Shown here: positions 1 to 14,474 of the stretch, in pieces | Numbering within the stretch: position 1 is the stretch's first letter | Layout of the letters: every line of letters starts with the position of its first letter | From: Gammaproteobacteria bacterium | GTDB lineage: Bacteria; Pseudomonadota; Gammaproteobacteria; Steroidobacterales; GCA-2729495 | Assembly: GCA_019454675.1 (NCBI GenBank) | Contig: JACFNV010000003.1 | Location: 15,231 to 63,214, forward strand | DNA length: 47,984 bases | Reading direction: 5' to 3' | Position numbers and translations under genes: made by a program | Notes under the pieces: generated by a model | Told to the model about the DNA's origin: nothing | Seen by the model: the letters and a program-made list of their open reading frames with translations, nothing else | Database searches by the model: none

Positions 1-577
1 AGGAATCAAGAAAACGGTTCGCATCCGTCCTCATTCCTAATTCAGCAGCAGCAGCCGAAAACCAGGCTTGGTGATCCAGAGTCGCATCAATTCTGTATTT
101 TCCGCCATTCGGATCAAATCGGTGCCATGCGCCAAGACCGGAATTGAAACGATGGTGACCATAGTATGTTTCTGCAAGCTCGCGAGCCTCCTGAATTCCC
201 AGGATCTCGGCTGCACGCATCAGCGCCTCAATGATCCAGGCACTTCCGATGACCCCGTTGCACCAATCATGGCCATGTTTCTGCCTAAGAACGAAGGCAC
301 CCCTCCGAAAATAGGGACACTCATCCGTTAGCCAGGAATACAACGCAACCGCTATCTCTGCAAAGCCACGAGATGGATCTAGACGATGGCCCACACAGAA
401 TGCCAACAGCCAGTGACAGGTATTCCTTACCGGGGACTCCAAGGCGAAATGAGGCCCGTTATGTCCTGCGGCTGCAAACGCTTTTTTGCCATCAACCCGG
501 ACAAGCTGCTCTCGGCCAAAATCAAGAAACTGCAGATAGTCTCGCGAGACATGCAAGAGAAATTCATTCTGGTCCAC
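1..577 (-). CDS. Partial polysaccharide-locus enzyme, (alpha/alpha)-barrel-like (C-terminus beyond the window)
   Basis: An open minus-strand frame runs without a stop from a GTG at 577 to the left edge, so only the N-terminal 192 residues are present. The GTG overlaps the end of the flippase gene by 14 bases, which suggests translational coupling; no ATG lies nearby upstream in frame, and an in-frame stop sits 12 bases before the GTG. The protein has no signal peptide. It contains helix-rich stretches and a conserved-looking patch HGHDWCNGVIGSAWIIEAL, followed by GAWHRFDPNGGKY and LDHQAWFSAAAAE. Such Trp/His/Asp-rich helical repeats resemble (alpha/alpha)-toroid enzymes (LanC-like, epimerase or unsaturated-glycoside hydrolase folds). 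The exact family was not recognised. Its place beside wzx/wzy suggests a role in sugar-polymer modification or degradation (inference). Confidence 0.7.
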   Translation of the reverse strand, partial: MDQNEFLLHVSRDYLQFLDFGREQLVRVDGKKAFAAAGHNGPHFALESPVRNTCHWLLAFCVGHRLDPSRGFAEIAVALYSWLTDECPYFRRGAFVLRQKHGHDWCNGVIGSAWIIEALMRAAEILGIQEARELAETYYGHHRFNSGLGAWHRFDPNGGKYRIDATLDHQAWFSAAAAELGMRTDANRFLDS

Positions 578-1865
578 GTGCGCTTTCCACTCTTACCAAT
601 CTTGTTCGTGCGGTGACCATCATAATTACCCCAAGATCAATCAGGGCAAACAGCATCCGGATACCAACGAAAATCCATAGCACCACCCTTACTTCTGCCA
701 ACCATCCGGCAACGCTCGTCCACCACAACACGCTCATCATCAGCAACTGACCGAGGTGCCAGCATAATCTGTACCGATTGAGATCCAGGAGAACAGCCGC
801 ATCCTCCACCGTGGCAAGTGCAAAAACAAATATTTCGCCAAACAGCAGAATGAATGCATATTCCCCAGCCAGCCTCCATGTCTCACCGAAAACCACAGTG
901 AAGATCGCTGGAGCTGAAAACGCCATCATCAAATACACGGGTACCGCAAATGCCAAGGCACGCTTCACGATCAGCCAATACAGATTAATTATTTTTGCGC
1001 GCTCTCGTTGCATCACGAACACGCCGGCCTGGTTTCTAAAGGCTGTGCATATCGCCTGCCCAATAACTCCAGATGGCGCGCCCACCACCCGCTCCACGAG
1101 TCCGAAATACCCTGCGGAAACCGGCCCGCCTACCGCCGTCACGATCACTGTTGGCAGCCTCCCATAGGCGGTTTTCACTGCATTGGAAACAGTCAACAGA
1201 AAGCCGACGCCAGCTTCACGCTGAAAAACCTCTTTCAGACTAGACCATCTGAGCCCAACAGGATTGCATAGATGCGTCAATCGCGATGACCATATCCAGA
1301 CAAGAGCCGTGATCAGCAATCCGGATGCCTGGGCCACCAAAAGACCATATTCACGGTATCCACGACCAAAAATAAGCGCAGGAGCGATAGCCACGGTTGC
1401 ATTGGTCACCGACTGCAATATGGCGCCTCTTGCCACCCTGGAAAAATGACCGACTCGCACCAACCATGCCCGCAAGGCCTGCGTCCAGCTAATGCCGGCA
1501 ACAGTCAGAAAAAAGAGCCCCCCCAAGCGGGTTGCCAGCAGTTCCCGTGGAACTGGAACAACGGAAACAGCCGCAAGGATCATGAACACTGCGGCAACCA
1601 GCACCGAAAATACGAAGCTCCATGCAAAAATTATCTGTACTAATTGCCTGGCTAAATCATCCGTTCCCTGCAAAATAACCCGGTGCTCCAGCTGCCATGT
1701 GGCCAGTACGGCAGACATCCAGGCAGCAGCCGAGAACAAGGCGAACACCCCAAACTCTGCTGGTGTATACACACGAAGCAAAAGCGGAAGAACGCCGAGG
1801 GAGATCAGTTGCGCGACGCCAGTCCCCCCGACAATAACAGCTGCCCGCCTGATCAGAATCTTCAT
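564..1865 (-). CDS. Wzx-type oligosaccharide flippase (MOP superfamily)
   Basis: The 433-residue protein is almost entirely hydrophobic, with about 12 predicted membrane helices. It starts MKILIRRAAVIVGGTGVAQL and continues with a LLLRVYTPAEFGVFALFSA segment, typical of the first two helices of Wzx/RfbX and other MOP flippases. Such proteins move undecaprenyl-linked repeat units across the inner membrane. The ATG at 1865 gives the usual family length. The gene is divergent from the Wzy-like polymerase and overlaps the next minus-strand gene at its 3' end. Codon use and base composition are clearly AT-richer than downstream of 4.2 kb, as is common for horizontally exchanged antigen loci. The substrate cannot be told from the sequence. 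Confidence 0.88.
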   Translation of the reverse strand: MKILIRRAAVIVGGTGVAQLISLGVLPLLLRVYTPAEFGVFALFSAAAWMSAVLATWQLEHRVILQGTDDLARQLVQIIFAWSFVFSVLVAAVFMILAAVSVVPVPRELLATRLGGLFFLTVAGISWTQALRAWLVRVGHFSRVARGAILQSVTNATVAIAPALIFGRGYREYGLLVAQASGLLITALVWIWSSRLTHLCNPVGLRWSSLKEVFQREAGVGFLLTVSNAVKTAYGRLPTVIVTAVGGPVSAGYFGLVERVVGAPSGVIGQAICTAFRNQAGVFVMQRERAKIINLYWLIVKRALAFAVPVYLMMAFSAPAIFTVVFGETWRLAGEYAFILLFGEIFVFALATVEDAAVLLDLNRYRLCWHLGQLLMMSVLWWTSVAGWLAEVRVVLWIFVGIRMLFALIDLGVIMMVTARTRLVRVESARGPE

Positions 1866-2017
1866 CGATACGTCCCAGAAGCACCTGACTCTATGCCTTC
1901 CGCTCGCGGCAGATAGCCGGTCCTGATCACTCTACACAACTGGTCTGGCATGAAAAATAACTTGCTGACACCACTGAGGCCGGCCGATATTATTCCTCAA
2001 CAGATCTACAGCTAACG

Positions 2018-3370
2018 GTGACAACACGAGGCTTGATTTTGCTGATTCACCGAGAAGAAGCCACCAAGTACCTGGTCGTCATCGGGTATTACGTGATCCT
2101 CTCTGGCGCCTATGCCTTGAGCGGAACACGGGGACTTTTCAATCTGGGCATGTACGCCTTCGATTTTGATTTCGAACGATGGCTGGTTGCCACCACGCTT
2201 GTTGTCCTAGTTGCATTTGCCCTGCCGTCTAGGGCCAGCCGGGTATCCGATTATTTCTTGTGGATGCACGCAGCTGTTCCGGTTGTTCCAACTCTGGTTT
2301 TTTTCTCTTTTTCGGGAGGGACCCCCGGATTTGCTGCGCTCGTCATGACGGCTTTCATGTTGATCCGGCTGTCTGCCTTGTTCCAGCCAAGCCCATTGAT
2401 TCCAGGAGCCATAGGCACATCACCGGAATGGCCCATGTGGATAGGAATCGGCGCCATGTATTTCTTTATAATCGCCGGCGGCGATTATTCATCAATCGAT
2501 TTTTCGCTTGACAAGATTTACGCCAACAGGGCACAGATCAGCGAATCACAGTCAGGCTACTTCGAATACCTACATACAAATCTCTCCAAAAGCCTGCTTC
2601 CGTTTCTCTTGATCCTCTACTACACGAAGCGTCGCTACTGGCTTTTGGGTGTAACCGTAATTTGCAGCCTGGGGGTGTTTCTGGTATCCCAGCATCGTGC
2701 CGCACTGTTCTTCCCGCTGCTCGCACTCTTGTGCTATCGCTCTACCGGATGGGCCGGTGCTGCGGGAGGCCGCGGCATCATGAACATGTTCTCAGCGGTG
2801 CTAATTGCAGGCATGGTCCTGATATGCATCGATGCCACGGTGCTGCTGGGAGATATCGCAATCCGCAGAACATTCATTGTCCCTGCAGCATTAAATTACG
2901 AATATTTCCGATTCTTTCAGGAACACCCATTTACATTATTTTCGGATTCGACACTGTCCTTTGGCCTTGTCCCCAGGGTATATCCAGATCAGGTGCCGTT
3001 TCTCATCGGTTACGAAATAGGTCTTCCCGGAGCGCATGCGAATGCCAGCTATCTGGGATCCGGCTTTCAGCAAGCCGGTCTGGCAGGTGTCCTGCTGTAT
3101 GTCCTGATTTTATCCATCATGCTGAAGTTCTTGGATGGCATAGGAAAACAAATCGGGAACAACTGTTTCGTTTTCGCAATTTGTGCCCCATCGCTTTTCT
3201 GGCTGATTGATTCATCCGATCTTCCGAGCGTCTTTCTTACCCATGGATTACTCCTTTCCATGGCGATTTTGTGGCTTTGGTCGCCTTACCTGCGACTTCA
3301 TCTGTCACGCCCAGAAAGCACCACCCATAAACCCATCACCAGCCCAAGCACACCGCCAGAAACCGCATAG
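2018..3370 (+). CDS. O-antigen/exopolysaccharide polymerase-like membrane protein (Wzy type)
   Basis: A 450-residue polytopic membrane protein with about 10-12 hydrophobic helices and an ISESQSGYFEYLHTNLSKSLLPFLLILYY-region loop, followed by a late segment FLVSQHRAALFFPLLALLCY. Architecture, length and position between wzx and wzz fit Wzy polymerases, which are too diverse in sequence for a firm family call. The start is GTG at 2018, with no convincing Shine-Dalgarno sequence, so a slightly later start is possible. The last 24 codons lie antisense to the 3' end of the Wzz-like gene. That tail (HLSRPESTTHKPITSPSTPPETA) is hydrophilic and low-complexity, as if the frame had been extended by loss of an earlier stop. 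Polymerisation in the periplasmic face of the inner membrane is inferred. Confidence 0.75.
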   Translation: MTTRGLILLIHREEATKYLVVIGYYVILSGAYALSGTRGLFNLGMYAFDFDFERWLVATTLVVLVAFALPSRASRVSDYFLWMHAAVPVVPTLVFFSFSGGTPGFAALVMTAFMLIRLSALFQPSPLIPGAIGTSPEWPMWIGIGAMYFFIIAGGDYSSIDFSLDKIYANRAQISESQSGYFEYLHTNLSKSLLPFLLILYYTKRRYWLLGVTVICSLGVFLVSQHRAALFFPLLALLCYRSTGWAGAAGGRGIMNMFSAVLIAGMVLICIDATVLLGDIAIRRTFIVPAALNYEYFRFFQEHPFTLFSDSTLSFGLVPRVYPDQVPFLIGYEIGLPGAHANASYLGSGFQQAGLAGVLLYVLILSIMLKFLDGIGKQIGNNCFVFAICAPSLFWLIDSSDLPSVFLTHGLLLSMAILWLWSPYLRLHLSRPESTTHKPITSPSTPPETA

Positions 3371-4143
3371 TAGGCACGCTTTGGTCGTGCAACATCTTTT
3401 ATATCTGGAGGTAATGCGGGGTCGACCACCCGGAAGGCAAACTCCTCCGTTACGGTGGCCAGCATGCGCCGGTTAATCTGGCTCTCCAGCAGCCTGCCAA
3501 GATTTGCCCTGGTTTCAACCTGCAGCGTTTTTGCGATCTCCGCCTCCAGATAGCTGATTGAGGCATCGGCATCCGCGATTGCTCTTCGGCGCATTTCGTC
3601 ATTGAGTCGGGCAACGAGACCATTGGCAAGTATTGCCGCCCGGGTCGGATCAACCCACTCGATAGTCAAATTGATCAGCCCCGTCTTTTTGTCTGGGATG
3701 ATCTTTCTGACCTTCTGATTAAATTTGGCATAGGCCTGTGCCAGAGTAGGCGGTGACCCTGCATCATCCTTCCATCTTGAGTGTTCACTGTCCCACCGCT
3801 TGCTGAACAATTCAGGCAGGAGATTGCTGTCATGTATAAATTTTTCAGAAAAGCTCCGAGACTGCATGACCGCAAGCGCTTCCTCGGTTGCCGGGGCAGC
3901 CCCCCCCCCGGCAAACCCCGCTATCCCGGACAACACTCCCAACGCAGGCATCAACGGGTTGTTAAGGCGTCCCTCGCCGTCGGCGGCAATCAATACAGCC
4001 GTAGCACGATAAACCGATGGTTGCAGCAGTGAGGCGGCATAGAACAGCCCGCCAAACAGCAAAATGGAGCCTGCTATCCAATGCAGTTTCCGTAACAGCT
4101 TCCGCAGTAAATCGTCGATGCTGATGACATCATCATCGGTCAT
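3298..4143 (-). CDS. Wzz-like chain-length determinant protein
   Basis: The 281-residue product from the ATG at 4143 has the Wzz layout: a short cytoplasmic N-terminus (MTDDDVISIDDLLRKLLRKL), a first membrane helix at about residues 21-42, a periplasmic helical domain of about 200 residues, and a C-terminal Pro/Gly helix (PKRAYYAVSGGVLGLVMGL) at about 254-275. A further in-frame TTG at 4170 would add nine residues; the ATG is preferred because MTDD begins the conserved part. There is no kinase domain, so it is the proteobacterial Wzz rather than a Wzc tyrosine kinase. It lies 67 bases downstream of the wza-type gene on the same strand and probably shares its transcript. Expected role: setting polymer length together with Wzy. 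Confidence 0.87.
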   Translation of the reverse strand: MTDDDVISIDDLLRKLLRKLHWIAGSILLFGGLFYAASLLQPSVYRATAVLIAADGEGRLNNPLMPALGVLSGIAGFAGGGAAPATEEALAVMQSRSFSEKFIHDSNLLPELFSKRWDSEHSRWKDDAGSPPTLAQAYAKFNQKVRKIIPDKKTGLINLTIEWVDPTRAAILANGLVARLNDEMRRRAIADADASISYLEAEIAKTLQVETRANLGRLLESQINRRMLATVTEEFAFRVVDPALPPDIKDVARPKRAYYAVSGGVLGLVMGLWVVLSGRDR

Positions 4144-4210
4144 AGGACAGATCCCGGTGCCGCTTCGCAAAACATGCTTTTGTCATGCAATCTGCAAAGC
4201 AGGCAGCTTT

Positions 4211-6919
4211 TCAGAACGAGTTCACCGCCGCCACCGCGACGGCCAGGTTGTAGATGATGCTGGTAACCGAGGTCCACAGCGGCAGCGGTGGCAGGCGCTC
4301 GGCATCCACCGGGACGACGATGGTGTCGCCGGGCTGGATGCTCGTCCTGCCACTCGGCAGCCAGCGGCTGGTGGAGGCTGCCGCCACCTGGCCATTGGCA
4401 CGCACCACGTAGATGCGGCGCTTGTCGGCCTTCTGCGTGAGGCCGCCGCTCAGGTCGATGTAATCATCCCGCGTGAGGCCCGCCTGGTAGAGCTGCGAGG
4501 TGCCGCTCTGCACTTCTCCCATCACGGTAACCTCCTGGATGCGCCGCGGGATGCGCAGCCGGTCGGCATCGCGCAGCACGATGTCGTCGGCCGATCTGGC
4601 GGACTCGCGCAGCAGTGAAGGCAGGTCGATGGCCAGGCGCCCGACGGGTTTCGTGCGGCGCAGTTCGGCCAGCAGCGATTGGCCCGCCGCCAATGAATCG
4701 ACTCCGGCGGCATCCTTGCCGGCCTGTGCAGACTGTACCGCAAGCAGCGCAAGATCGCGCTCCAGCCGCTCGGCCAGCGAAGAGATCTGCTGTGCCTCGC
4801 GCTCCTTGAGCGCCTCGCGCGTGAACACCGCGCCCGCGGGGAAGGCCTGGTCGGTCAAGCCGCCCGCGCGTGCGATGAGCGTGGTCAGGGTCTCCCCGCG
4901 ACGGATGGGGTAGCGGCCGGGGAAGCGCACCTCGCCCTCCAGCGAGACGAACTCCTGATCGTCCCACTGCGGCGTGCGCTTCACGGTAAGAATGTCGAAA
5001 GCCTGCAGCGGCAGGTCCGCCTGCGGATCACCCCTGAGGGCAGCGGCGATGTCGAAACTGACGACGCTGGCCTTGCGCGACTGCCCGCCGACCACCTCGT
5101 AGCGTGCCAGCTCGGCCTCGCCGCCGAAGGCGGCTTCCGAGAGGCTCGCGCCGGCCCGCACCAGGTCGGCCACCGTCATGCCGGGTTCCAGGGGATACTC
5201 GCCCGGCATGCGCACGCTGCCGCCGATGGTGACCATGCCGGCGGGCGCCTCGAGCGTGCTCTGCCGCTGCAGCTCATCGAGCAGCGGGCGCAGCAGCGGC
5301 TCGCGGCTGCCGCCCAGGTCGAAGACGAGGATGCGGTCGCGCGGCGCGAGCAGGAGGTCGTCTTCGCCACCGGGGTTGCGCAGCGCACGGCCGAGGCTCG
5401 CCGAATGTACCTCGATGCGCCGGTCCGGCGCCAGCTCGCGGCGCACCAGCACGTAGTCGGCATCTGCATTGGGCTTGAGGGCCTCGATGCTGCCCAGCAC
5501 CTGCGTCAGGCGCAGCCCCCGGCGGTACTGGTGCGCACCCGGCTGGTGAACGTGCCCCGCCACCAGCACGCTGTCGTTGAGCACATCGCGCACCACCGGG
5601 ATGTGCAGCACATCGCCGTTGCGCAGGCGGGTCGCCCTGCCTTCGGCGCTGCCGAGATCCACGTTGAGGACGATGCGCCCGCGGGCCGGGTCGATGCGCT
5701 CGATGGTGGCGCTGGCGGGCGAGGCGGCCTCCGTCAGGCCACCGCCCAGCTCGACCAGCGCGCCTGCTGTTGCCGCCCCGGCGAACTCGTAGCGTGCCGG
5801 CCGGCGCACCTCGCCGGTGATGCCGGCCGAATCGCCGATCGGCGGCACGAAGACGACATCGCCGGATTGCAGGCGCAGGTCGCCGGACGAATCCCCGCGC
5901 AGCAGCAGGTCGTAGAGATCAAGCGTGCCTGCAGTACGCCCGCCACGCAGCACCCGCACGCGGCGCAGCGAGCCGATGGGCTTGACGCCACCGGCCGCCA
6001 TGAGCGCATTGCTGGCGGTGGAAAGGCCACCCACGGTATAGGCACCGGGCTTCTCGGCATCGCCCGTGATCATCACCTGCAGCGAGCGCAGGCTCCCCAT
6101 GCCGACCGAAACCCTGGTGCCGATCATCTGCTCGGCAACGCTGGTCTCGATGGCCTCCTGCATCTCGGCAAAGCGCATGCCGGCAACCGCCATGGGACCG
6201 ATCTCGGGCAGGCGGATGCGGCCATCGCGGGCGACGGTGAGCGTATACAGGCCCTTGACGTTGCCGAGGAACTGCAGCTCGAGCGCATCGCCGGGGCCAA
6301 TGGTGTAGTCCGGCGGCACCGGCACATCGCTCACCTGCGCGAAGGTGCTGGGTACGTTGCGGAAGATGTCGTAGCCGAAGGGCTTGAGTGCATCGGTGCC
6401 GAGCGGCGTGGGCTTGAGGAGCACGAGCCCGACATCGACCGCCCTGAATGCCGGCTCGTTCTGCAGGCGGGTCGTGGCTTCTTCGGCGTTCAGCCCGGCC
6501 AGCGGAATCGGCTCCGGCAGACCGGGAATGCGGATGCGCCCGTCACGCTCGAGCCGGTAGGGATTGGCGGCCAGTGCGCGCGCCACCAGCTCGTCGGTGC
6601 GTGCGCGCAGCTCCGGGCTGATGGCGGAATTTGCATCCATGCCAGCCGTCGCCAGCGTCAGCAGCACCGTATCGCCCGGTGCCGCCAGGGTGGCGTCGAT
6701 CGGCTCGGCGGCCCTTGGCTGGCTGGCAGCCGGCATCACCAGCGGCTGGTCGGCCTGGCCCTGCTGGCGGTACTGCCCGAGCAACGCACGTTGCTGCTCG
6801 GCCGGCAGCTGGCCGAGCAGTTGCAGTTGCTCTGGAGTGGGTACCTGTGCCGGGGCATGCGATGACAGCAAGAACAACAGCGCGGTAATGACCGCCAGCG
6901 CACCCATTCCCGACTTCAC
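4211..6919 (-). CDS. Long polysaccharide export protein with multiple SLBB domains (Wza type)
   Basis: The 902-residue protein begins with a signal peptide (hydrophobic residues 6-20, likely cleavage near APA at 24), without a clear lipobox Cys. The Poly_export domain starts around residue 204 (DYTIGPGDALELQFLG). Several SLBB repeats follow, each with a G-x-V-x-x-P-G-x-Y-like core: ITGDAEKPGAYTV, ITGEVRRPARYEF, VAGHVHQPGAHQYR, IGGSVRMPGEYPL, LEGEVRFPGRYPI. The C-terminus ends in an amphipathic helix that could cross the outer membrane, as in E. coli Wza. It is more than twice the length of Wza (about 380 residues) and resembles the extended SLBB exporters of exopolysaccharide systems. The start is GTG at 6919, preceded by a GGGGG-rich Shine-Dalgarno. 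Confidence 0.9.
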   Translation of the reverse strand: MKSGMGALAVITALLFLLSSHAPAQVPTPEQLQLLGQLPAEQQRALLGQYRQQGQADQPLVMPAASQPRAAEPIDATLAAPGDTVLLTLATAGMDANSAISPELRARTDELVARALAANPYRLERDGRIRIPGLPEPIPLAGLNAEEATTRLQNEPAFRAVDVGLVLLKPTPLGTDALKPFGYDIFRNVPSTFAQVSDVPVPPDYTIGPGDALELQFLGNVKGLYTLTVARDGRIRLPEIGPMAVAGMRFAEMQEAIETSVAEQMIGTRVSVGMGSLRSLQVMITGDAEKPGAYTVGGLSTASNALMAAGGVKPIGSLRRVRVLRGGRTAGTLDLYDLLLRGDSSGDLRLQSGDVVFVPPIGDSAGITGEVRRPARYEFAGAATAGALVELGGGLTEAASPASATIERIDPARGRIVLNVDLGSAEGRATRLRNGDVLHIPVVRDVLNDSVLVAGHVHQPGAHQYRRGLRLTQVLGSIEALKPNADADYVLVRRELAPDRRIEVHSASLGRALRNPGGEDDLLLAPRDRILVFDLGGSREPLLRPLLDELQRQSTLEAPAGMVTIGGSVRMPGEYPLEPGMTVADLVRAGASLSEAAFGGEAELARYEVVGGQSRKASVVSFDIAAALRGDPQADLPLQAFDILTVKRTPQWDDQEFVSLEGEVRFPGRYPIRRGETLTTLIARAGGLTDQAFPAGAVFTREALKEREAQQISSLAERLERDLALLAVQSAQAGKDAAGVDSLAAGQSLLAELRRTKPVGRLAIDLPSLLRESARSADDIVLRDADRLRIPRRIQEVTVMGEVQSGTSQLYQAGLTRDDYIDLSGGLTQKADKRRIYVVRANGQVAAASTSRWLPSGRTSIQPGDTIVVPVDAERLPPLPLWTSVTSIIYNLAVAVAAVNSF

Positions 6920-7070: not shown

Positions 7071-9140
7071 CTACTGCCACTGCGACCAGTCCTGGCGGTT
7101 CTCGGCGACATGGAAGAGCGCAGCCACGACGCGGCGGTCGAACTGGCTGCCGGCACCGCGCATCAGCTCGTCCAGCGCACCCTGCACCGAGAGGCCCTGG
7201 CGCCATGCACGCGGGCTGAGCAGGGCCACGAAGGCATTGGCCACGGCCAGCACCTGGCCGGCCAGCGTGATGCGCGAGGCGGGCAGGCCGTGCGGATAGC
7301 CACGGCCGTCGGGCCGCTCGTGCTTCTGCGCGATGATGTCCACCACCGGGCCATCGAACTGCAGGCCGTGCAGCAGCTCGAGCCCGTAGCCGACGTGCTT
7401 CTGGAGCGTTGCCTGCTCCTCGGCGCTCAACGGCCCGGGCTTGGTCAGCAGATCCACCGGGATCATCACCTTGCCGATGTTGGCAAGGCTCGCCGCGAGC
7501 GTAAGCGTGGCGCGCTCCCGGTCGCTGAAGTCGAGCTCGCGCGCCAGCGCATCGGCCACCTCGGTCATGCGCTGCGCGTGGTGGGCCGAATAGGGATCGT
7601 GGCGGTCGACCACGCCGACGAGGGTCAGCACCAGCCGGCGCAGCATGTCGGTGTTGCGCTGGTTGGCCTGCTGGATGGCGGAGACATCGCTCAGCACCAG
7701 CAGCACCAGGTCGCGCTCCTCGCCGATGCGGTGCACCGGGATGAAGCTGGCGCGGAACATCCTCTCCGTCTCGCCCTCCGCATCCGGCCAGGCCAGCAGC
7801 TGCTGCACGCTGCCGCCCTGGTCGCGCACCTGCGCCAGCCCGGCGTGGATGCCGGGCTGCACCGCCTGGGGCAGCACGCCGCTGACCAGCCCGCCCTGCA
7901 TGGTGCTGATGGTGGTGCCGGCGGCGGCCGCCGCCGCCTGGTTGGTGAACACCACCCGGTTGTCGGCTGCCACCAGGATCACCGGCACGTCGAGGCTGTC
8001 GCTGATGGTGTGCAGCAGCTCGGTCTGCTGCTGGAGATGGTCGGCCTTGCTGCCGAGCTCGGCGGCCAGGTGGCGCGCGCGCACCCCGCTGCCATGGCGC
8101 CAGGCCGCCACTGCCACCGCGGCCACCGACAGCAGCAGCAGCGACAGCGCCATCAGCAGGAAGCGGCGCCGCTCATCGGCAAGGCTCAGCGCCTGGGCCG
8201 CATCGACCTGCTGCACCAGCACCCAGCCCTGCCCGCTGATCGGGCGGCTGACCTGCAGCACCTTCTCGCCGCGGTAGTTGGGCAGCGCGACGAAGCGCCC
8301 GGGCGCGGCAACCGCCGCGACCTCGGCAAGCTCGCCGCGCCCGGCGGGCAGCGCGCGCCGCAACGGCTTCGAGCCATCGTGGGTGGGCGACAGCAGGACC
8401 ACCTCCTCGCCGCGCCTCTCGAGCAGGATGGACTCGCTCTCCTCGGAAAAGTCGGGGCCACGGGCCAGCAGCGGATAGAGGTCGGCGGCAGCCGAGCGGA
8501 TGGCAAGCAGCACGCCCAGCGGGCGCGCGGCATCGCCACCGGCGCCCGAGACGGTGGCGATCGGCAGGGCCTCCACCAGCACCGGTTCGTCGCCGGCCCC
8601 GTTCATCAGCTGCACGATGCGGGCAATCTGCCCGTCAAGCAGCGGGCGCAGCACCTCCGCGTAGGTCGATGTCAGGTCGAAGAGCCCCGGGGTGGCCACC
8701 ACCGGGCGCAGCTGCGCATCCAGTATCGCCAGCCCGGTGCTGCGCGGCTGGGGCAGGTTGGCGGGAATCCGCGCTCCACTGTCCGCCTCGTAGCCCCAGC
8801 GGGCGGCGGCCGCCAGCAGCAGGTTGCGCAGGTAACCCTGCGATTCCGGCTCCGCATCGGTGGCATCCCCCGCCGCCGGCCGATGATTGGCTGCCTGCCA
8901 CAGGTAGAAGCGCAGGGAAGCGTTGGCCGCCAGCTCCTCGAGGTTGCGGTGGTCGGCCGTCAGCAGGCGCGCCACCGCATCCGCCTTGGTGCCCGCCACC
9001 AGGCCGAGGCGGGTCTCCCATTGCAGGAGGTCGCGCTCCTTCTCGGCGCCGATGTAGCCGTTGATGAGCAGCGCCCCGACCACCATCAGCAGCAGCAGCA
9101 GCCCGGCAGCGGCGGCGACCGAGGCGCGCAACCGGTTCAT
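7071..9140 (-). CDS. Membrane sensor with periplasmic domain, PAS and degenerate HD-GYP domain
   Basis: The 689-residue protein has a first membrane helix at about 9-29, a periplasmic domain of about 295 residues, a second helix at about 327-347, a PAS-like domain (about 374-490) and an HD-GYP domain (about 505-689). HD-GYP proteins normally hydrolyse cyclic di-GMP using the His-Asp pair. Here that pair is replaced by Ala553-Asn554 (SLANIGKVMIP), the HHE motif reads KHE (606-608), and the later VAD aspartate is Asn635. The GYP signature itself is kept (RPDGRGYP, 609-616). Loss of several metal ligands argues for a binding or signalling role rather than catalysis (inference). The ATG at 9140 overlaps the stop of the LapG-like protease gene by four bases, so the two are co-translated. 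Confidence 0.88.
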   Translation of the reverse strand: MNRLRASVAAAAGLLLLLMVVGALLINGYIGAEKERDLLQWETRLGLVAGTKADAVARLLTADHRNLEELAANASLRFYLWQAANHRPAAGDATDAEPESQGYLRNLLLAAAARWGYEADSGARIPANLPQPRSTGLAILDAQLRPVVATPGLFDLTSTYAEVLRPLLDGQIARIVQLMNGAGDEPVLVEALPIATVSGAGGDAARPLGVLLAIRSAAADLYPLLARGPDFSEESESILLERRGEEVVLLSPTHDGSKPLRRALPAGRGELAEVAAVAAPGRFVALPNYRGEKVLQVSRPISGQGWVLVQQVDAAQALSLADERRRFLLMALSLLLLSVAAVAVAAWRHGSGVRARHLAAELGSKADHLQQQTELLHTISDSLDVPVILVAADNRVVFTNQAAAAAAGTTISTMQGGLVSGVLPQAVQPGIHAGLAQVRDQGGSVQQLLAWPDAEGETERMFRASFIPVHRIGEERDLVLLVLSDVSAIQQANQRNTDMLRRLVLTLVGVVDRHDPYSAHHAQRMTEVADALARELDFSDRERATLTLAASLANIGKVMIPVDLLTKPGPLSAEEQATLQKHVGYGLELLHGLQFDGPVVDIIAQKHERPDGRGYPHGLPASRITLAGQVLAVANAFVALLSPRAWRQGLSVQGALDELMRGAGSQFDRRVVAALFHVAENRQDWSQWQ

Positions 9141-9823
9141 GATCGCCGTCCGGCGGCGGCCGGCAGATGCATCCACCAGCCATCCGCGTTGATCGAGTAC
9201 ACCGGCGCGTAATGGACCACCTGGCGGTGCGACAGCACCCCGCGCACCTGGTTGTCGAGCACCAGGATCTCCTCGCCCCGGCCTACCGCCAGCACCGCAT
9301 GCGGCACCCGCAGGTTGGTGTCCTGCACGACGACGATGCGCAGCTCGCCTTCCGGGTAGCCCAGCCAGCGCAGCGAGAAATACTTGGTGATGGCGTAGTC
9401 CTCGCAATCCCCGCCATTGCCGAAGAACTCGCGGGGGATGGCCCAGTAGTCCTCGATGCCGTAGTTGTCGATGTCGAGCACGTAGCTCATCTCGTTGGCA
9501 TAGCGGTTGACCTCGCGCAGCTGCTCGGCCGGCGGCCGGCCGCGCAGCCCGCCAAGGAAAGCCAGCCAGCGCTCCATGTGGCAGCGGTTGAGCCGCCGTT
9601 CGCCGCAATCGCCATCGCGCAGGTTGTCGCGCAGCTGGCGCTCGAGCATCTGCAGCCACTGCGGGAACGCGGCGATGTCGTCCTGCGCCGCCTGCTGGTA
9701 GCCGAACAGGTCCGGGGCAAAGGCCGCCGCCGGCGCGCCGGCCATGACAAAGATCATCGCCAAGGCCGCTGCCAGGCCCGGGGCCAGCGACACCCGGGCG
9801 CGAGACCGGAAAAACTGTGACAT
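9137..9823 (-). CDS. Transglutaminase-like periplasmic cysteine protease (LapG/BTLCP family)
   Basis: The 228-residue product starts MSQFFRSRARVSLAPG and has a secretion signal up to about residue 34 (MAGAPAAAFA). The transglutaminase-like core carries the catalytic triad: Cys140 in GNGGDCEDYA, His175 in LRVPHAVLAV and Asp190 in EILVLDN. The acidic pair after the Cys matches the calcium site of LapG. In Pseudomonas, LapG clips a large adhesin off the cell surface and is held inactive by LapD, a cyclic di-GMP receptor. No LapA-like adhesin is in the window. The gene is the first of a two-gene unit with the degenerate HD-GYP sensor, by an ATGA overlap. It is divergent from the Slam-like gene. 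Confidence 0.9.
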   Translation of the reverse strand: MSQFFRSRARVSLAPGLAAALAMIFVMAGAPAAAFAPDLFGYQQAAQDDIAAFPQWLQMLERQLRDNLRDGDCGERRLNRCHMERWLAFLGGLRGRPPAEQLREVNRYANEMSYVLDIDNYGIEDYWAIPREFFGNGGDCEDYAITKYFSLRWLGYPEGELRIVVVQDTNLRVPHAVLAVGRGEEILVLDNQVRGVLSHRQVVHYAPVYSINADGWWMHLPAAAGRRS

Positions 9824-9889: not shown

Positions 9890-11176
9890 ATGAACACCCC
9901 CCGCCTTGTCATGCACAGGTTCCTTGCCGGCCTGCTGGCGTCCGTGGCCCTGCTCCTGGCGGGCACCGTCCACGCCGCCGATGACATACAGGAACAGTTC
10001 GATGCGGCCATGGCCGCCATCGACAGCGACCACCTGCTCACTGCCCGCCAGACGCTCCAGGACCTGCTGGCCGCCAATCCCAGCCTCAACCGTGCCCGCC
10101 TCGAGCTGGCGCGGGTGCATTACCTCTCGGGCGACTACCCCGGGGCGCGGGCCGAGGCGCAGCGCGTGCTCGACGATCCCACCACGCCGCCGCAGGTGCG
10201 CGCCACCGTGCTGGCCTTCCTCGCCCAGATCGAGGCCGACGGCCAGCGCGCCAGCCAGCGCCACCAATGGCGCCCCTCGATCTACGCGGGCCTGATGTAC
10301 GACTCCAACGTCAACATCGGCCCCAACCGCGATGTCATCGACATCGGCGGCAACCTCTACCAGGTCTCGCGCGACTCGCGCGAGACCAGCGACCTCGCCT
10401 GGGTGGTGAACCCGGCCCTCTCGCACATCTACAACCCCAACCAGCGCTTCCAGTGGGGCGAGCACAGCGGCAACTTCATCTGGCAGACCGACGCCAGCGC
10501 CTACTACCGGGGCTATTTCGACGAAAGCGACTTCCACCTCGGCGTGCTCAGCCTGCGCACCGGGCCGGCCTGGATCGTGCCGCGCCGCTGGCGCGCCAGC
10601 GTGGGACTCCAGGCGGACAAGATCTGGCTGGGCAACGACAGCCTGGCGCTGATCACCTCGATCAACCCGGGCATCACCTGGCAGCTGGGCAACGACTGGG
10701 AAGTGGGCCTCGATGGCATGCTCGGCTACCGCAACTACAACCGCGGCGTCGATGACGGCCGCGATGGCTGGGACCGCAAGCTCAACCTGTCGGCGGCGCG
10801 CTACTTCGACAACCGCCGCTGGGCGCTGCTGGGCGGCATCGGCTACCACGACTTCGACGCCGACGAGGACCGCTTCAGCTACCACGGCCCCGATCTCTAC
10901 CTGGGCGCCATCGCCCAGGCCTGGGAAAACGGCATGGTCTACGCCAGGGTGGGCTACTCGCGATTCGACTTCGACGGGCGCGAGCCGCTGTTCGGCCGCG
11001 GCCGCGACGACGACGAATGGCGCTACACGCTCGGCTTCCAGCACGATATCCAGAGCGGCCCGCTGGCCCGCTGGGCGCTGCAAGGCAGCTGGATGTATAC
11101 CGACAACAGCTCCAACACGCCCATCTACGACTACGACCGCCACGTCGTCAACCTGGGGCTGGCGCGCAGCTTCTAA
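9890..11176 (+). CDS. TPR plus outer-membrane barrel protein (surface lipoprotein assembly modifier / Slam-like)
   Basis: The 428-residue protein has a signal peptide cleaved near HAADD (about residue 30). Tetratricopeptide-like helices follow at about 35-120 (DHLLTARQTLQDLLAANPSL, ARLELARVHYLSGDYPGAR). A C-terminal domain rich in alternating aromatic beta-strands runs from about 125 to the end, finishing with Phe, as outer-membrane barrels do. This TPR-plus-DUF560 layout is that of Slam proteins, which deliver lipoproteins to the cell surface in Neisseria. Many proteobacterial relatives have unknown substrates. A start at the internal Met8 (MHRFLAGLL) would give a more compact signal peptide. 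The two downstream secreted proteins are candidate clients, but neither has a lipobox, so this is speculation. Confidence 0.85.
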   Translation: MNTPRLVMHRFLAGLLASVALLLAGTVHAADDIQEQFDAAMAAIDSDHLLTARQTLQDLLAANPSLNRARLELARVHYLSGDYPGARAEAQRVLDDPTTPPQVRATVLAFLAQIEADGQRASQRHQWRPSIYAGLMYDSNVNIGPNRDVIDIGGNLYQVSRDSRETSDLAWVVNPALSHIYNPNQRFQWGEHSGNFIWQTDASAYYRGYFDESDFHLGVLSLRTGPAWIVPRRWRASVGLQADKIWLGNDSLALITSINPGITWQLGNDWEVGLDGMLGYRNYNRGVDDGRDGWDRKLNLSAARYFDNRRWALLGGIGYHDFDADEDRFSYHGPDLYLGAIAQAWENGMVYARVGYSRFDFDGREPLFGRGRDDDEWRYTLGFQHDIQSGPLARWALQGSWMYTDNSSNTPIYDYDRHVVNLGLARSF

Positions 11177-11336: not shown

Positions 11337-12488
11337 ATGAACTTCACCAGACTCACGATCATTTTCCTGCTTGCGGCATGGTCCCTCGGTGCCAGCGCGG
11401 CCGATCTGACGCTGGAGAACCAGGACTGCGCCAGCATCCTCGAGCGCTGGGCGGAGAATCCCGATTCGGTGCCTGCCCGCCTGGTCGATGCCTGCAAGGA
11501 GCAGATGGCGCAGCCCGCGGTGCCCGTCGCCGCCCTCGAGCCGGCACCGAGCATCGCCGACCCCTGCGCCGAGGGCGGTACCGGCAACGTGCTGTGCTGG
11601 GGCCCCTGGGCCGCGCTGGCACCGGCAGCCGCGGCACCGATGGTGGCGCTGGCGCTCCCCCCGCACATCGGCGACTGCGATGTCGGCTCGGGCATCTCCG
11701 ACCGCTGCCGCGTGCAGCTCGAGGAGCTCGACCCCGCGCCCGGGCCGGTCTATCCGCTGGGCCCCTGCGAGCCCGGCATGCCCTGCGGCTTCGCCACCTT
11801 CGTCGATGGCGTGACCAGCACCGGCGATGTCGAGGACACCGAATTCAAGCGCTTCACCCTCGACCCCGATGGCACCCGCTTCGTGGTGGATCCGAACGGC
11901 CCCGACGAGATCAACTCGGTGGCCATGGGCACCAATGTCCAGCCGCGGCCCGATGGCTACGAGAACATGCGTGCCAACGGCATCGATGGCGACGAGCAGT
12001 CGCGGGCCATCGCGCGGATCATCCGCGAGGGCGAAGGCGCCGACATCGAGCTCGCCGCCGACATCTGGGCGCACGGCAACCGCAGCACCGGGGCCGGCAA
12101 CTCCGGCTACTTCGCCTGGGGCGTGGCCACCTCCGCATCGGGGCTGGACCTGCTCAACGGCGAGGGTATCTCGCTGACCTTCACCGGCCCCATGTCGGTG
12201 AACAACGCCACCAACGCCTCGATCACCGTCAACTTCGGCAGCCAGCCGGCCTGGACCGGCAACTGGGAGAACCCCGCCTGGTCCTTTGGCGCCGGCGGCA
12301 GCGTCAATGGCGTCAACCTGCTCTCCGACCCAGCCAGCTTCACCAGCAACGTGCAGGCGGGCAGCGTGGTGCAAGGCGCACTGCTGGGCGAGCCGGGTGG
12401 CAACCAGGGCATTACCCACATCATCGACGTACGGCTCGCAGACGGTGGCCACATCAAGGATGTCGGCCTGCTGCGTGCCCCCAGATAA
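11337..12488 (+). CDS. Secreted protein of unknown function, Cys-rich N-terminal half
   Basis: No family was recognised. The 383-residue product starts at the ATG at 11337, preceded by GGAGAA at good spacing, and has a signal peptide (MNFTRLTIIFLLAAWSLGASA). The mature N-terminal half carries eight cysteines, spread over about residues 30-145, consistent with periplasmic or extracellular disulfides. The C-terminal half has no Cys and is rich in Gly, Asn and Ser with predicted beta-strands (GISLTFTGPMSVNNATNASITVNF region), like a beta-sandwich. The gene lies between the Slam-like gene and the PEP-CTERM gene on the same strand, 16 bases before the latter, so the two are probably co-transcribed. 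A role in the cell envelope or extracellular matrix is inferred from location only. Confidence 0.8.
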   Translation: MNFTRLTIIFLLAAWSLGASAADLTLENQDCASILERWAENPDSVPARLVDACKEQMAQPAVPVAALEPAPSIADPCAEGGTGNVLCWGPWAALAPAAAAPMVALALPPHIGDCDVGSGISDRCRVQLEELDPAPGPVYPLGPCEPGMPCGFATFVDGVTSTGDVEDTEFKRFTLDPDGTRFVVDPNGPDEINSVAMGTNVQPRPDGYENMRANGIDGDEQSRAIARIIREGEGADIELAADIWAHGNRSTGAGNSGYFAWGVATSASGLDLLNGEGISLTFTGPMSVNNATNASITVNFGSQPAWTGNWENPAWSFGAGGSVNGVNLLSDPASFTSNVQAGSVVQGALLGEPGGNQGITHIIDVRLADGGHIKDVGLLRAPR

Positions 12489-12504: not shown

Positions 12505-13110
12505 ATGAACACCCCGATCCGCACTATCCTGTTCGCCGGCCTGGCACTTGCCGGGCTCGGTGCCCAGGCAGCCACGATCTCGCTGCAGCCCTCGCAATCC
12601 ATCGTGGAGGCGGGCACCAGCTTCAGCGTCGAGCTGCTGCTCGATGCCAGCGATGCACCGGGCGCCCATCCCGGCCTCTTCGGCGGCGAGGTGGTCATCG
12701 ACTACGACCCCACGCAGCTGCAGTTCACCGGCTTCACCACCTCGCTGCCGCTGTTCGAGCCCGTCACCACGGGCAGTCTCGATGGCCGCAGCACCGTGAG
12801 CTTCGGCTTCGACCACGCCCCGGATACGGGCGTCATCGGCAGCCTGGGCTTCACGGCCATCGGCCAGGCGGGTGAAGTGGCCAGCATCGGCCTGCGCGAC
12901 GCTGACGACTTCATGGGCACCTTCATCAGCTACATCCCGACCTACCAGGCCTTCTATCCGGAAGCGCTCGGCACCTCGGTGCAGCTGGTCAATGCCGAGG
13001 TCCCGCTGCCCGGCGCGCTGTGGCTGCTGGTGTCGGCACTGGGCCTGGGTGCCGGCAGCCGGCGGCTGATGCTGCGTCGTTCGCTGGCAGCGGTCTCTCC
13101 GCGCGCTTGA
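12505..13110 (+). CDS. PEP-CTERM-type protein with cohesin-like domain
   Basis: The 201-residue protein has a signal peptide (cleavage near AQA, residue 22), then a cohesin-like beta-sandwich. Its hallmarks are LQPSQSIVEAGTSFSVELLL at the start and FGGEVVIDYDPTQLQFTGF in the middle. The C-terminus has the PEP-CTERM layout: VPLPG at 166-170, a hydrophobic helix (ALWLLVSALGLGAG) and an Arg cluster (SRRLMLRR). PEP-CTERM tails are recognised by exosortase and are typical of bacteria with extracellular polysaccharide loci. No exosortase gene is in the window. The tail extends 10-12 residues past the Arg cluster, longer than usual. ATG at 12505 follows a GAGGAT Shine-Dalgarno. The stop overlaps the TTG start of the L,D-transpeptidase. 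Confidence 0.82.
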   Translation: MNTPIRTILFAGLALAGLGAQAATISLQPSQSIVEAGTSFSVELLLDASDAPGAHPGLFGGEVVIDYDPTQLQFTGFTTSLPLFEPVTTGSLDGRSTVSFGFDHAPDTGVIGSLGFTAIGQAGEVASIGLRDADDFMGTFISYIPTYQAFYPEALGTSVQLVNAEVPLPGALWLLVSALGLGAGSRRLMLRRSLAAVSPRA

Positions 13111-14474
13111 CCGACAGGCTCCCACACCGGCTCGCGGCCACGTTGCTCGTGGCCGCGAGCTTCGCCGCCTACGCCCAACCACCCACCGCAGCCGAGGCCT
13201 GGCAGGAGGCCATCGCCACGGCTGCGGCCGATGGCCTCGACCCCGCGCTCTACGCCGATCCCGTGCAGCTTGCCAGGGATCTTGCCGCCGGACATACCGA
13301 CCCCCGCGCGGGCGATCCGGAGTGGCATATCCCCCGGCCCGCCACCTTCGAGGGCAGCATCGACGACACGCTGCCGGAGGCGCTGGCGCCATCGGCCGCC
13401 GATTACCGGCGGCTGCGCGAGGCGATGCGCGCTCACCTCGCCATCCGCGACAGCGGCGGCTGGCCGGTGCTGCCGCCATCTCCCGGACAACTGCACGCCG
13501 GCCAGCGGGACGCGGCGGTGGCCACGCTGCGCGAGCGCCTGCGGCGCAGCGGCGACTTCGACAGCGAGGTGGGCGCCGACCCCTGGTTCTTCGATGCCGC
13601 ACTCGACCGCGCGCTGCGCCATTTCCAGCTGCGCCACGGCCTGCTCGGCAACGGCATCCTCGACGAGCCCACCCGCACCGCCGCCAACATCAGCGTGGAG
13701 GAGCGCATCGGCCAGCTGGCGGTGGCACTCGAGCGCTGGCGCTGGCTGCCGCGGCAGCTGGAGCCGGAACACGCCTGGATCAACATCGTCAGCGGCACGC
13801 TGGAGGTATCCGGGCCGGCGGGCGGGATGCTGGCCATGCGCGTCATCGTCGGCCACCCCGAACGGCCCACCCCGGCCATGCGCGGGGCATTGCGCCAGGT
13901 GACCTTCAACCCCACCTGGTCGGTGCCGCGCACCATCGCCATCGAGGACCTGCTGCCGCGCCAGCAGGAAGAGCCCGGCTTCCTCGCCTCGCGCGGCTTC
14001 CATGTCTTCGATGCCCGCAGCGGCCGCGAGATCGCCCCGGAAGCGGTGCCCTGGGATACGCTCGGCATCAACCGCTTCCCCTACCGGCTGCGCCAGGATG
14101 CGGGTCCCGGCAACAGCCTCGGCCGCATCAAGGTGGCCTGGGACAACCCCTTCGACATCTACCTGCACGACACCCCGTCGAGGGGGTTGTTCGGGCTCAA
14201 CCGGCGCACGCTGAGCGCGGGCTGCATCCGCATGGAGGATGCTCCCGCGCTGGCCACCCTGCTGCTCGAGCGCGATCGCGACTGGGACGCAGCCGCCACC
14301 ACCGCCAATATCGAGGCCGGCAGGACCCGGGTGCTCAACCTCAACCGGCAGCTGCCGCTGTACGTGGTCTACCTGACGGCCTGGGTGGATGCGGACGGTA
14401 CGGTGCAATTCCGCAAGGATGTCTACGGGCGCGATGCCAAGGTGCTGGCAGCGCTGGACGGCGCCCTGCCCTGA
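13107..14474 (+). CDS. L,D-transpeptidase with peptidoglycan-binding domain (YcbB/LdtD-like)
   Basis: Starting from the TTG at 13107, which overlaps the previous stop (TTGA), the product has 455 residues and a clear signal peptide (MTDRLPHRLAATLLVAASFAAYA). A peptidoglycan-binding-like helix bundle spans about 125-205, with ALRHFQLRHGLLGNGILDEPT. The YkuD catalytic domain follows, with His354 in IYLHDTPSRGLF and the nucleophile Cys373 in LSAGCIRMEDA. The family forms 3-3 cross-links or attaches proteins to peptidoglycan in the periplasm. Longer in-frame starts exist inside the PEP-CTERM gene but would bury the signal peptide, so they are rejected. Coupling to a PEP-CTERM gene is uncommon. Confidence 0.88.
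   Translation: MTDRLPHRLAATLLVAASFAAYAQPPTAAEAWQEAIATAAADGLDPALYADPVQLARDLAAGHTDPRAGDPEWHIPRPATFEGSIDDTLPEALAPSAADYRRLREAMRAHLAIRDSGGWPVLPPSPGQLHAGQRDAAVATLRERLRRSGDFDSEVGADPWFFDAALDRALRHFQLRHGLLGNGILDEPTRTAANISVEERIGQLAVALERWRWLPRQLEPEHAWINIVSGTLEVSGPAGGMLAMRVIVGHPERPTPAMRGALRQVTFNPTWSVPRTIAIEDLLPRQQEEPGFLASRGFHVFDARSGREIAPEAVPWDTLGINRFPYRLRQDAGPGNSLGRIKVAWDNPFDIYLHDTPSRGLFGLNRRTLSAGCIRMEDAPALATLLLERDRDWDAAATTANIEAGRTRVLNLNRQLPLYVVYLTAWVDADGTVQFRKDVYGRDAKVLAALDGALP

Follow-up and report, generated by a model that had tools for sequence, protein, structure and literature searches.

A DvhD-type receptor and LapG-like protease beside a type 11 secretion barrel: a predicted LapG substrate in Gammaproteobacteria

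In the LapD-LapG-LapA system of Pseudomonas fluorescens, the receptor LapD is a GGDEF-EAL protein with a LapD/MoxY periplasmic domain, and LapA is exported by type 1 secretion (T1SS). The LapG-CdrA pair of Pseudomonas aeruginosa (accessible text of PMC4694147) extends this protease to a cargo outside T1SS, since the secretion of CdrA is of type Vb (accessible text of PMC13090378). Closer to the locus considered here is DvhD-DvhG of Desulfovibrio vulgaris. According to the accessible part of its description (PMC13090378, Font et al. 2026), DvhD is a dCache-PAS-HD-GYP receptor in which the HD motif has become SQ; it binds c-di-GMP without hydrolysing it, and its proposed role is to hold back DvhG, a LapG-type protease that controls T1SS adhesins. 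The same source gives the LapG consensus as [T/A/P]AAG. This arrangement was in print in 2024 (Karbelkar 2024 PNAS, as referred to in the accessible text of PMC13090378) and again in 2026 (PMC13090378). A further system of relevance is type 11 secretion (T11SS, Slam) with its TbpB, fHbp and haemophilin cargo. To our knowledge, most T11SS cargo and any regulation of this route are unknown.

The window, by which we mean the whole stretch of 47,984 nucleotides that was analysed, belongs to a 2.38 Mb assembly of 191 contigs that contains one LapG. The gene of this protease (9137..9823, minus strand, 228 aa) overlaps with its stop the start of the receptor gene by 4 bases (ATGA). The protein is assigned to Peptidase_C93 by a PF06035 match above cut-off (E 5.4e-18), by the catalytic residues C140, H175 and D190, and by the calcium-site residues D139 and E141, all of which are invariant in 52/52 LapGs; its score of 95.8 bits falls below the curated cut-off of 320 for the LapG equivalog NF045674. 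A signal peptide was recognised by eye.

The receptor (7071..9140, minus strand, ATG at 9140, 689 aa) consists of a transmembrane helix, a dCache domain, a second transmembrane helix, a PAS domain and a degenerate HD-GYP domain. The hydrophobic stretches cover about residues 3-33 and 325-349 and enclose the periplasmic dCache domain (8181..9044, minus strand, residues about 33-320). The PAS domain (7680..8000, minus strand, residues 381-487) is recognised by PF08448 (E 3.9e-7), and the HD-GYP domain (7128..7613, minus strand, residues 510-671) by PF13487 (HD_5, E 1.3e-35). Its GYP is intact (residues 614-616), and the metal site is not: the HD motif reads AN (A553-N554; 7479..7484, minus strand), the HH motif KH (K606-H607; 7320..7325, minus strand), and the third metal Asp is Asn (N635; 7236..7238, minus strand), as it is in DvhD (N641). 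Our alignment of receptors holds 53 rows, one of them a fragment without the metal-site region, and so 52 rows were scored there. The Asp of the HD motif is gone in all 52 (Asn in 51, Ser in 1), and the third metal Asp is Asn in 52/52. Most of the other HD-GYPs encoded in these genomes retain HH and, with it, HD or LD, as judged by a motif pattern that found no match in some of them. Because metal ligands are missing in 52/52 aligned receptors, we reject a phosphodiesterase activity for this protein.

The original prediction for this DNA had described a LapG-like protease coupled to an HD-GYP receptor with a periplasmic domain, two membrane helices, the catalytic HD changed to AN and GYP retained. 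This description stands in every one of these points, and its incompleteness lies elsewhere: the PAS domain and the changes of HH to KH and of the third Asp to Asn were overlooked, as were, at the level of the locus, the adjoining Slam barrel and its motif-bearing cargo, to which we return below.

The same prediction saw in the receptor an independent solution that takes the place of LapD. Indeed, the window receptor has neither the LapD/MoxY periplasmic domain nor GGDEF-EAL, and there is good support from homology for a non-catalytic HD-GYP as an inside-out receptor; such a receptor is not new, given the published DvhD/DvhG, and the claim of independence has to be given up. The closest solved structures by sequence are the DvhD fragments 9rc0 (E 7e-41) and 9rbz. 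The structure of the receptor was predicted (mean pLDDT 84) and compared with solved structures: it matches 9rc0, the DvhD PAS/HD-GYP part, with Z 24.1 (289 aligned, 3.7 A, residues 366-689 covered), 9rbz, the c-di-GMP-bound DvhD HD-GYP, with Z 23.4, and 9rc2, the DvhD periplasmic domain, with Z 19.7 (245 aligned, 3.8 A). For the periplasmic region a composite chemoreceptor model scores 20.0 and a second such model 18.4, and other dCache domains 17.8 or less. In a tree of 71 HD-GYP domains, 52 LapG-linked ones and DvhD, itself a long branch, share one branch with support 100/98, apart from the 18 others. Since DvhD groups with the LapG-linked clade, the receptor is not an independent invention. 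It shares with DvhD the dCache-PAS-dead HD-GYP plan, the place beside a LapG-type protease and the Asn at the third metal position, while the HD motif differs (AN here, SQ in DvhD). Receptor and protease thus very probably represent the known DvhD type in a lineage context that is new, although the class-level figure of PMC13090378 may cover Gammaproteobacteria.

How widespread is the pair? Among 60 genomes (its own and relatives), 26 match the receptor at E 1e-30, two of the 26 being other HD-GYPs in other families; the receptor is found in 10/10 genomes of the genus and 24/37 of the family, the own genome included. Within the class, 15/369 genomes match at E 1e-60, with LapG adjacent in all, and within the phylum 20/398 match at E 1e-50, many of them across the HD-GYP part only. 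The survey of co-occurrence that the original prediction had called for is therefore positive, with the pair recurring across Pseudomonadota. Nine loci of the phylum search (L135-L143) were fetched, and LapG adjoins the receptor in eight; in the ninth, L137 (G695:C69), the contig is short and carries no LapG, and a TAG breaks the receptor frame, which possibly reflects decay or an assembly error. In L135-L143 receptor and LapG are mostly divergent in orientation, and neither Slam nor motif is present. Two loci of one genus (L050 and L051, in G033 and G017) have lost the PAS domain and keep dCache, dead HD-GYP and the adjacent LapG. A single-protein query matched none of the genome contigs; an alignment query then gave 28 loci. 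Among the named records with relatives are MAGs labelled as uncultured Gammaproteobacteria, Chromatiales or Nevskiales, and no relative was found on viral contigs. Over all 53 loci examined, LapG adjoins the receptor in 52. Given this and the loss of the HD Asp in 52/52 receptors, the pairing is not a matter of chance.

The neighbourhood is where the window departs from D. vulgaris. DvhDG adjoins T1SS genes and a giant adhesin; no such genes lie beside the window pair, which adjoins an outer-membrane barrel, a cargo of TbpB fold and exopolysaccharide genes. The barrel gene (SlipAM, T11SS/Slam-like, 9890..11176, plus strand) diverges from the pair and is recognised by PF04575 (E 7.5e-8, 32.7 bits against a cut-off of 22); its N-terminus has TPR matches that lie under their own cut-offs. 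It is followed by the predicted T11SS cargo and LapG substrate (11337..12488, plus strand, 383 aa), by a small exported protein (12505..13110, plus strand) whose VPLPxxxWLL C-terminus looks PEP-CTERM-like by eye and whose N-terminal part we take to resemble cohesin, and by an L,D-transpeptidase (YkuD, 13020..14474, plus strand, PF03734 E 3.8e-15). This layout, the receptor-LapG pair facing a divergent SlipAM, an orphan secreted protein, the small VPLP-tailed protein and the L,D-transpeptidase, is conserved in the family. Pfam and NCBIfam name no sorting family for the VPLP protein. Two exosortase matches occur elsewhere in the genome of the window, and at L078 and L109 the motif protein is likewise followed downstream by proteins with a VPLP/VPVP tail. 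On the other side of the pair (564-6919) are the exopolysaccharide genes, namely a flippase, a possible polymerase, Wzz and a 902-aa SLBB export protein; this block is also present in the close relatives L031 and L032 and missing from the other mapped family members. In the distant loci L075, L088-L091 and L109 a recurring neighbour of the cargo gene is presumably a 2-isopropylmalate synthase gene.

Of the 53 loci, which lie on different contigs (L035 and L036 are nearly identical at the locus), SlipAM is present in 37, and a motif-bearing orphan accompanies it in 34 of these 37. The three SlipAM loci without a motif protein (L061, L070 and L116) have 555, 2042 and 1454 bases left to the contig end, which truncates them. 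Conversely, L088 has a motif protein without SlipAM. Slam and motif are both missing at L111, L114, L115 and the 9 phylum-search loci, so that in these places receptor and LapG must act on something else.

The orphan protein itself belongs to no family named by Pfam or NCBIfam. It has a signal peptide, a helical hairpin with a Cys pair, a disordered linker and a TbpB-like C-terminal barrel; lipidation, judged by eye, is absent, and in this, as in its WGxW..PAA motif, it differs from known T11SS cargo. The model (mean pLDDT 75.5) shows two short helices, a disordered part at 38-115 and the barrel at 127-358. The best structural match of the barrel is the TbpB C-lobe (Z 13.9, 190 aligned, 3.6 A), and all 50 listed matches are folds that we take, partly from general knowledge, to be of Slam-cargo type (TbpB, fHbp, NHBA, LbpB, haemophilin). 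The disordered linker keeps the whole-chain TM-scores from Foldseek low, and the fold assignment is based on the comparison by Z score. The linkage of the two genes suggests that the partner SlipAM barrel would export this protein. At L112, L113, L078, L109 and L192 the motif proteins are very short, with a signal peptide, WGxW..PAAG and a proline-rich tail and without a barrel.

The disordered part contains a single strongly conserved island, at window residues 81-100 (WGPW and PAA), in which the mean share of the commonest residue is 0.78-0.83, compared with 0.38-0.66 in the neighbouring blocks. In 15 diverse sequences the W, G, W, P, A and A columns are invariant. The window copy reads WGPW-AALA-PAAAAP (11598..11639, plus strand), with the di-alanine kept and the Gly absent, and we propose it as a LapG site. 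The strict form [T/A/P]AAG occurs at 21/34 motif loci, 11/24 inside the family and 10/10 Slam loci outside it, and two family members read PAGG and PLAG, without the di-alanine. A scan of 4682 ORFs met the motif pattern 7 further times, once in the true motif protein of L088; two matches near SlipAM (L048 and L090, beside the true motif protein) look like chance. A motif profile of 32 positions, run on 339 class genomes, matched 10 at E<1e-7, all 10 receptor-positive, the next match being at 1e-3. This test is partly circular, because 8 of the 10 strong matches had built the profile. The two outside the training set (G157 and G307) both read WGPW..PAAG, and one of them lies beside a Slam fragment.

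What may this arrangement do? In our opinion the best reading, and one that we consider fairly probable, is that LapG cuts a T11SS surface protein under the control of c-di-GMP, by the same regulatory logic as is known for LapD, LapG and LapA. At high c-di-GMP the dead HD-GYP pocket would be occupied, and the change would be relayed via PAS and the membrane helices to the dCache domain, which would then restrain LapG. Meanwhile the Slam/T11SS barrel would export the cargo with its TbpB-like C-terminal barrel, and the N-terminal linker would stay in the periplasm. When c-di-GMP falls, the freed LapG would cut at the di-alanine of WGxW...PAA(G) and detach the surface barrel from the N-terminal piece, so that the surface protein may be released or remodelled, possibly with consequences for adhesion.

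The first step of this chain has a competitor, in which the HD-GYP is a structural relay only, and LapG is controlled independently of c-di-GMP by a dCache domain that responds to a ligand in the periplasm. Domains of the dCache type usually bind ligands, and several nucleotide contacts of DvhD are altered: in the window receptor K582 is Gln, R569 is Asp, K520 is His and E668 differs, and these four are not kept across the aligned receptors either. Against this reading, other contacts are retained despite the lost catalysis (in 53 rows, L577 in 52 with one gap, R650 in 51, P567 in 50 and Y621 in 43), and DvhD, which is built alike, does bind c-di-GMP (accessible text of PMC13090378). Going by these residues, the window receptor would probably bind it too, and we hold a pure relay to be very improbable; 9 GGDEF proteins are encoded in the same genome. 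Somewhat less improbable, and still quite unlikely, is that WGxW..PAA serves for docking, with LapG, the receptor or the Slam TPR domain as the partner, and not as a cleavage site, the cargo regulating the protease or being only sorted by it. It is true that WGxW is as invariant as PAA and yet lies outside the published LapG consensus (accessible text of PMC13090378), and that the Gly after the di-alanine is often absent in the family. However, outside the family all Slam loci carry the exact PAAG, and the motif sits in a linker predicted to be disordered (pLDDT <50), as a protease site would be.

A more serious objection, although we regard it as unlikely, is that the pair is a plain DvhD/DvhG whose target is a large adhesin of the ordinary kind with its gene at another place in the genome, and that the Slam cargo is a mere neighbour. 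DvhG acts on T1SS adhesins in D. vulgaris (accessible text of PMC13090378), some related loci lack a Slam gene as described, and L114 has a gene that by eye looks TolC-like and a fragment that looks like an adhesin. Weak sub-threshold matches of the LapA retention module also occur in three family genomes (G016, G025 and G032). Against this, the module is above cut-off in 0 of 23 family genomes, two of them single-contig, which leads us to reject a canonical LapA target in the family, and several families share both the neighbourhood and the WGxW..PAA motif. The same 23 genomes have one LapG each and no LapD_MoxY_N (PF16448), so that the DvhD-type system is the only one found there. Among 34 receptor-bearing genomes, LapD_MoxY_N is present in 3 (G294, G302 and G402) and LapA retention above cut-off in 2 (G302 and G402). 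In the latter two (C19 and C54) the contig with LapD also encodes a second LapG; a genome can thus hold the canonical and the DvhD-type system side by side. G294 has the LapD N-domain and one LapG only.

Gated cleavage of a T11SS cargo remains our preferred reading, and its novelty looks to lie in the output, that is the T11SS barrel and motif-bearing cargo, the pairing of receptor and protease being already known from sulfate reducers. The resemblance to LapG-CdrA, as far as the accessible texts describe it, is in the use of a cargo outside T1SS; the secretion route is another and the cargo unrelated. Among the papers listed in searches of the open literature on LapG, and on c-di-GMP, with T11SS (Slam, DUF560), none joins LapG with T11SS, and a term search of two T11SS surveys gave no LapG, HD-GYP or transglutaminase. 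Both T11SS and c-di-GMP figure in a review of secretion systems (PMC10778856). A T11SS cargo as a LapG target is a prediction, new as far as searched and with good support from gene linkage, from the fold and from the motif, and we lean towards it.

This analysis shows that the DvhD-type receptor of sulfate reducers occurs, with one origin, in a broad range of Pseudomonadota, and it names a short motif as a candidate LapG site, suited to a peptide cleavage assay. By a narrow balance we also favour the more general statement that a DvhD-type receptor and LapG control the surface retention of Slam cargo via a WGxW..PAA(G) site in several families of Gammaproteobacteria, which would be a third LapG output beside T1SS (LapA) and type Vb (CdrA). 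If this is true, type 11 secretion would be under the control of c-di-GMP via a periplasmic protease.
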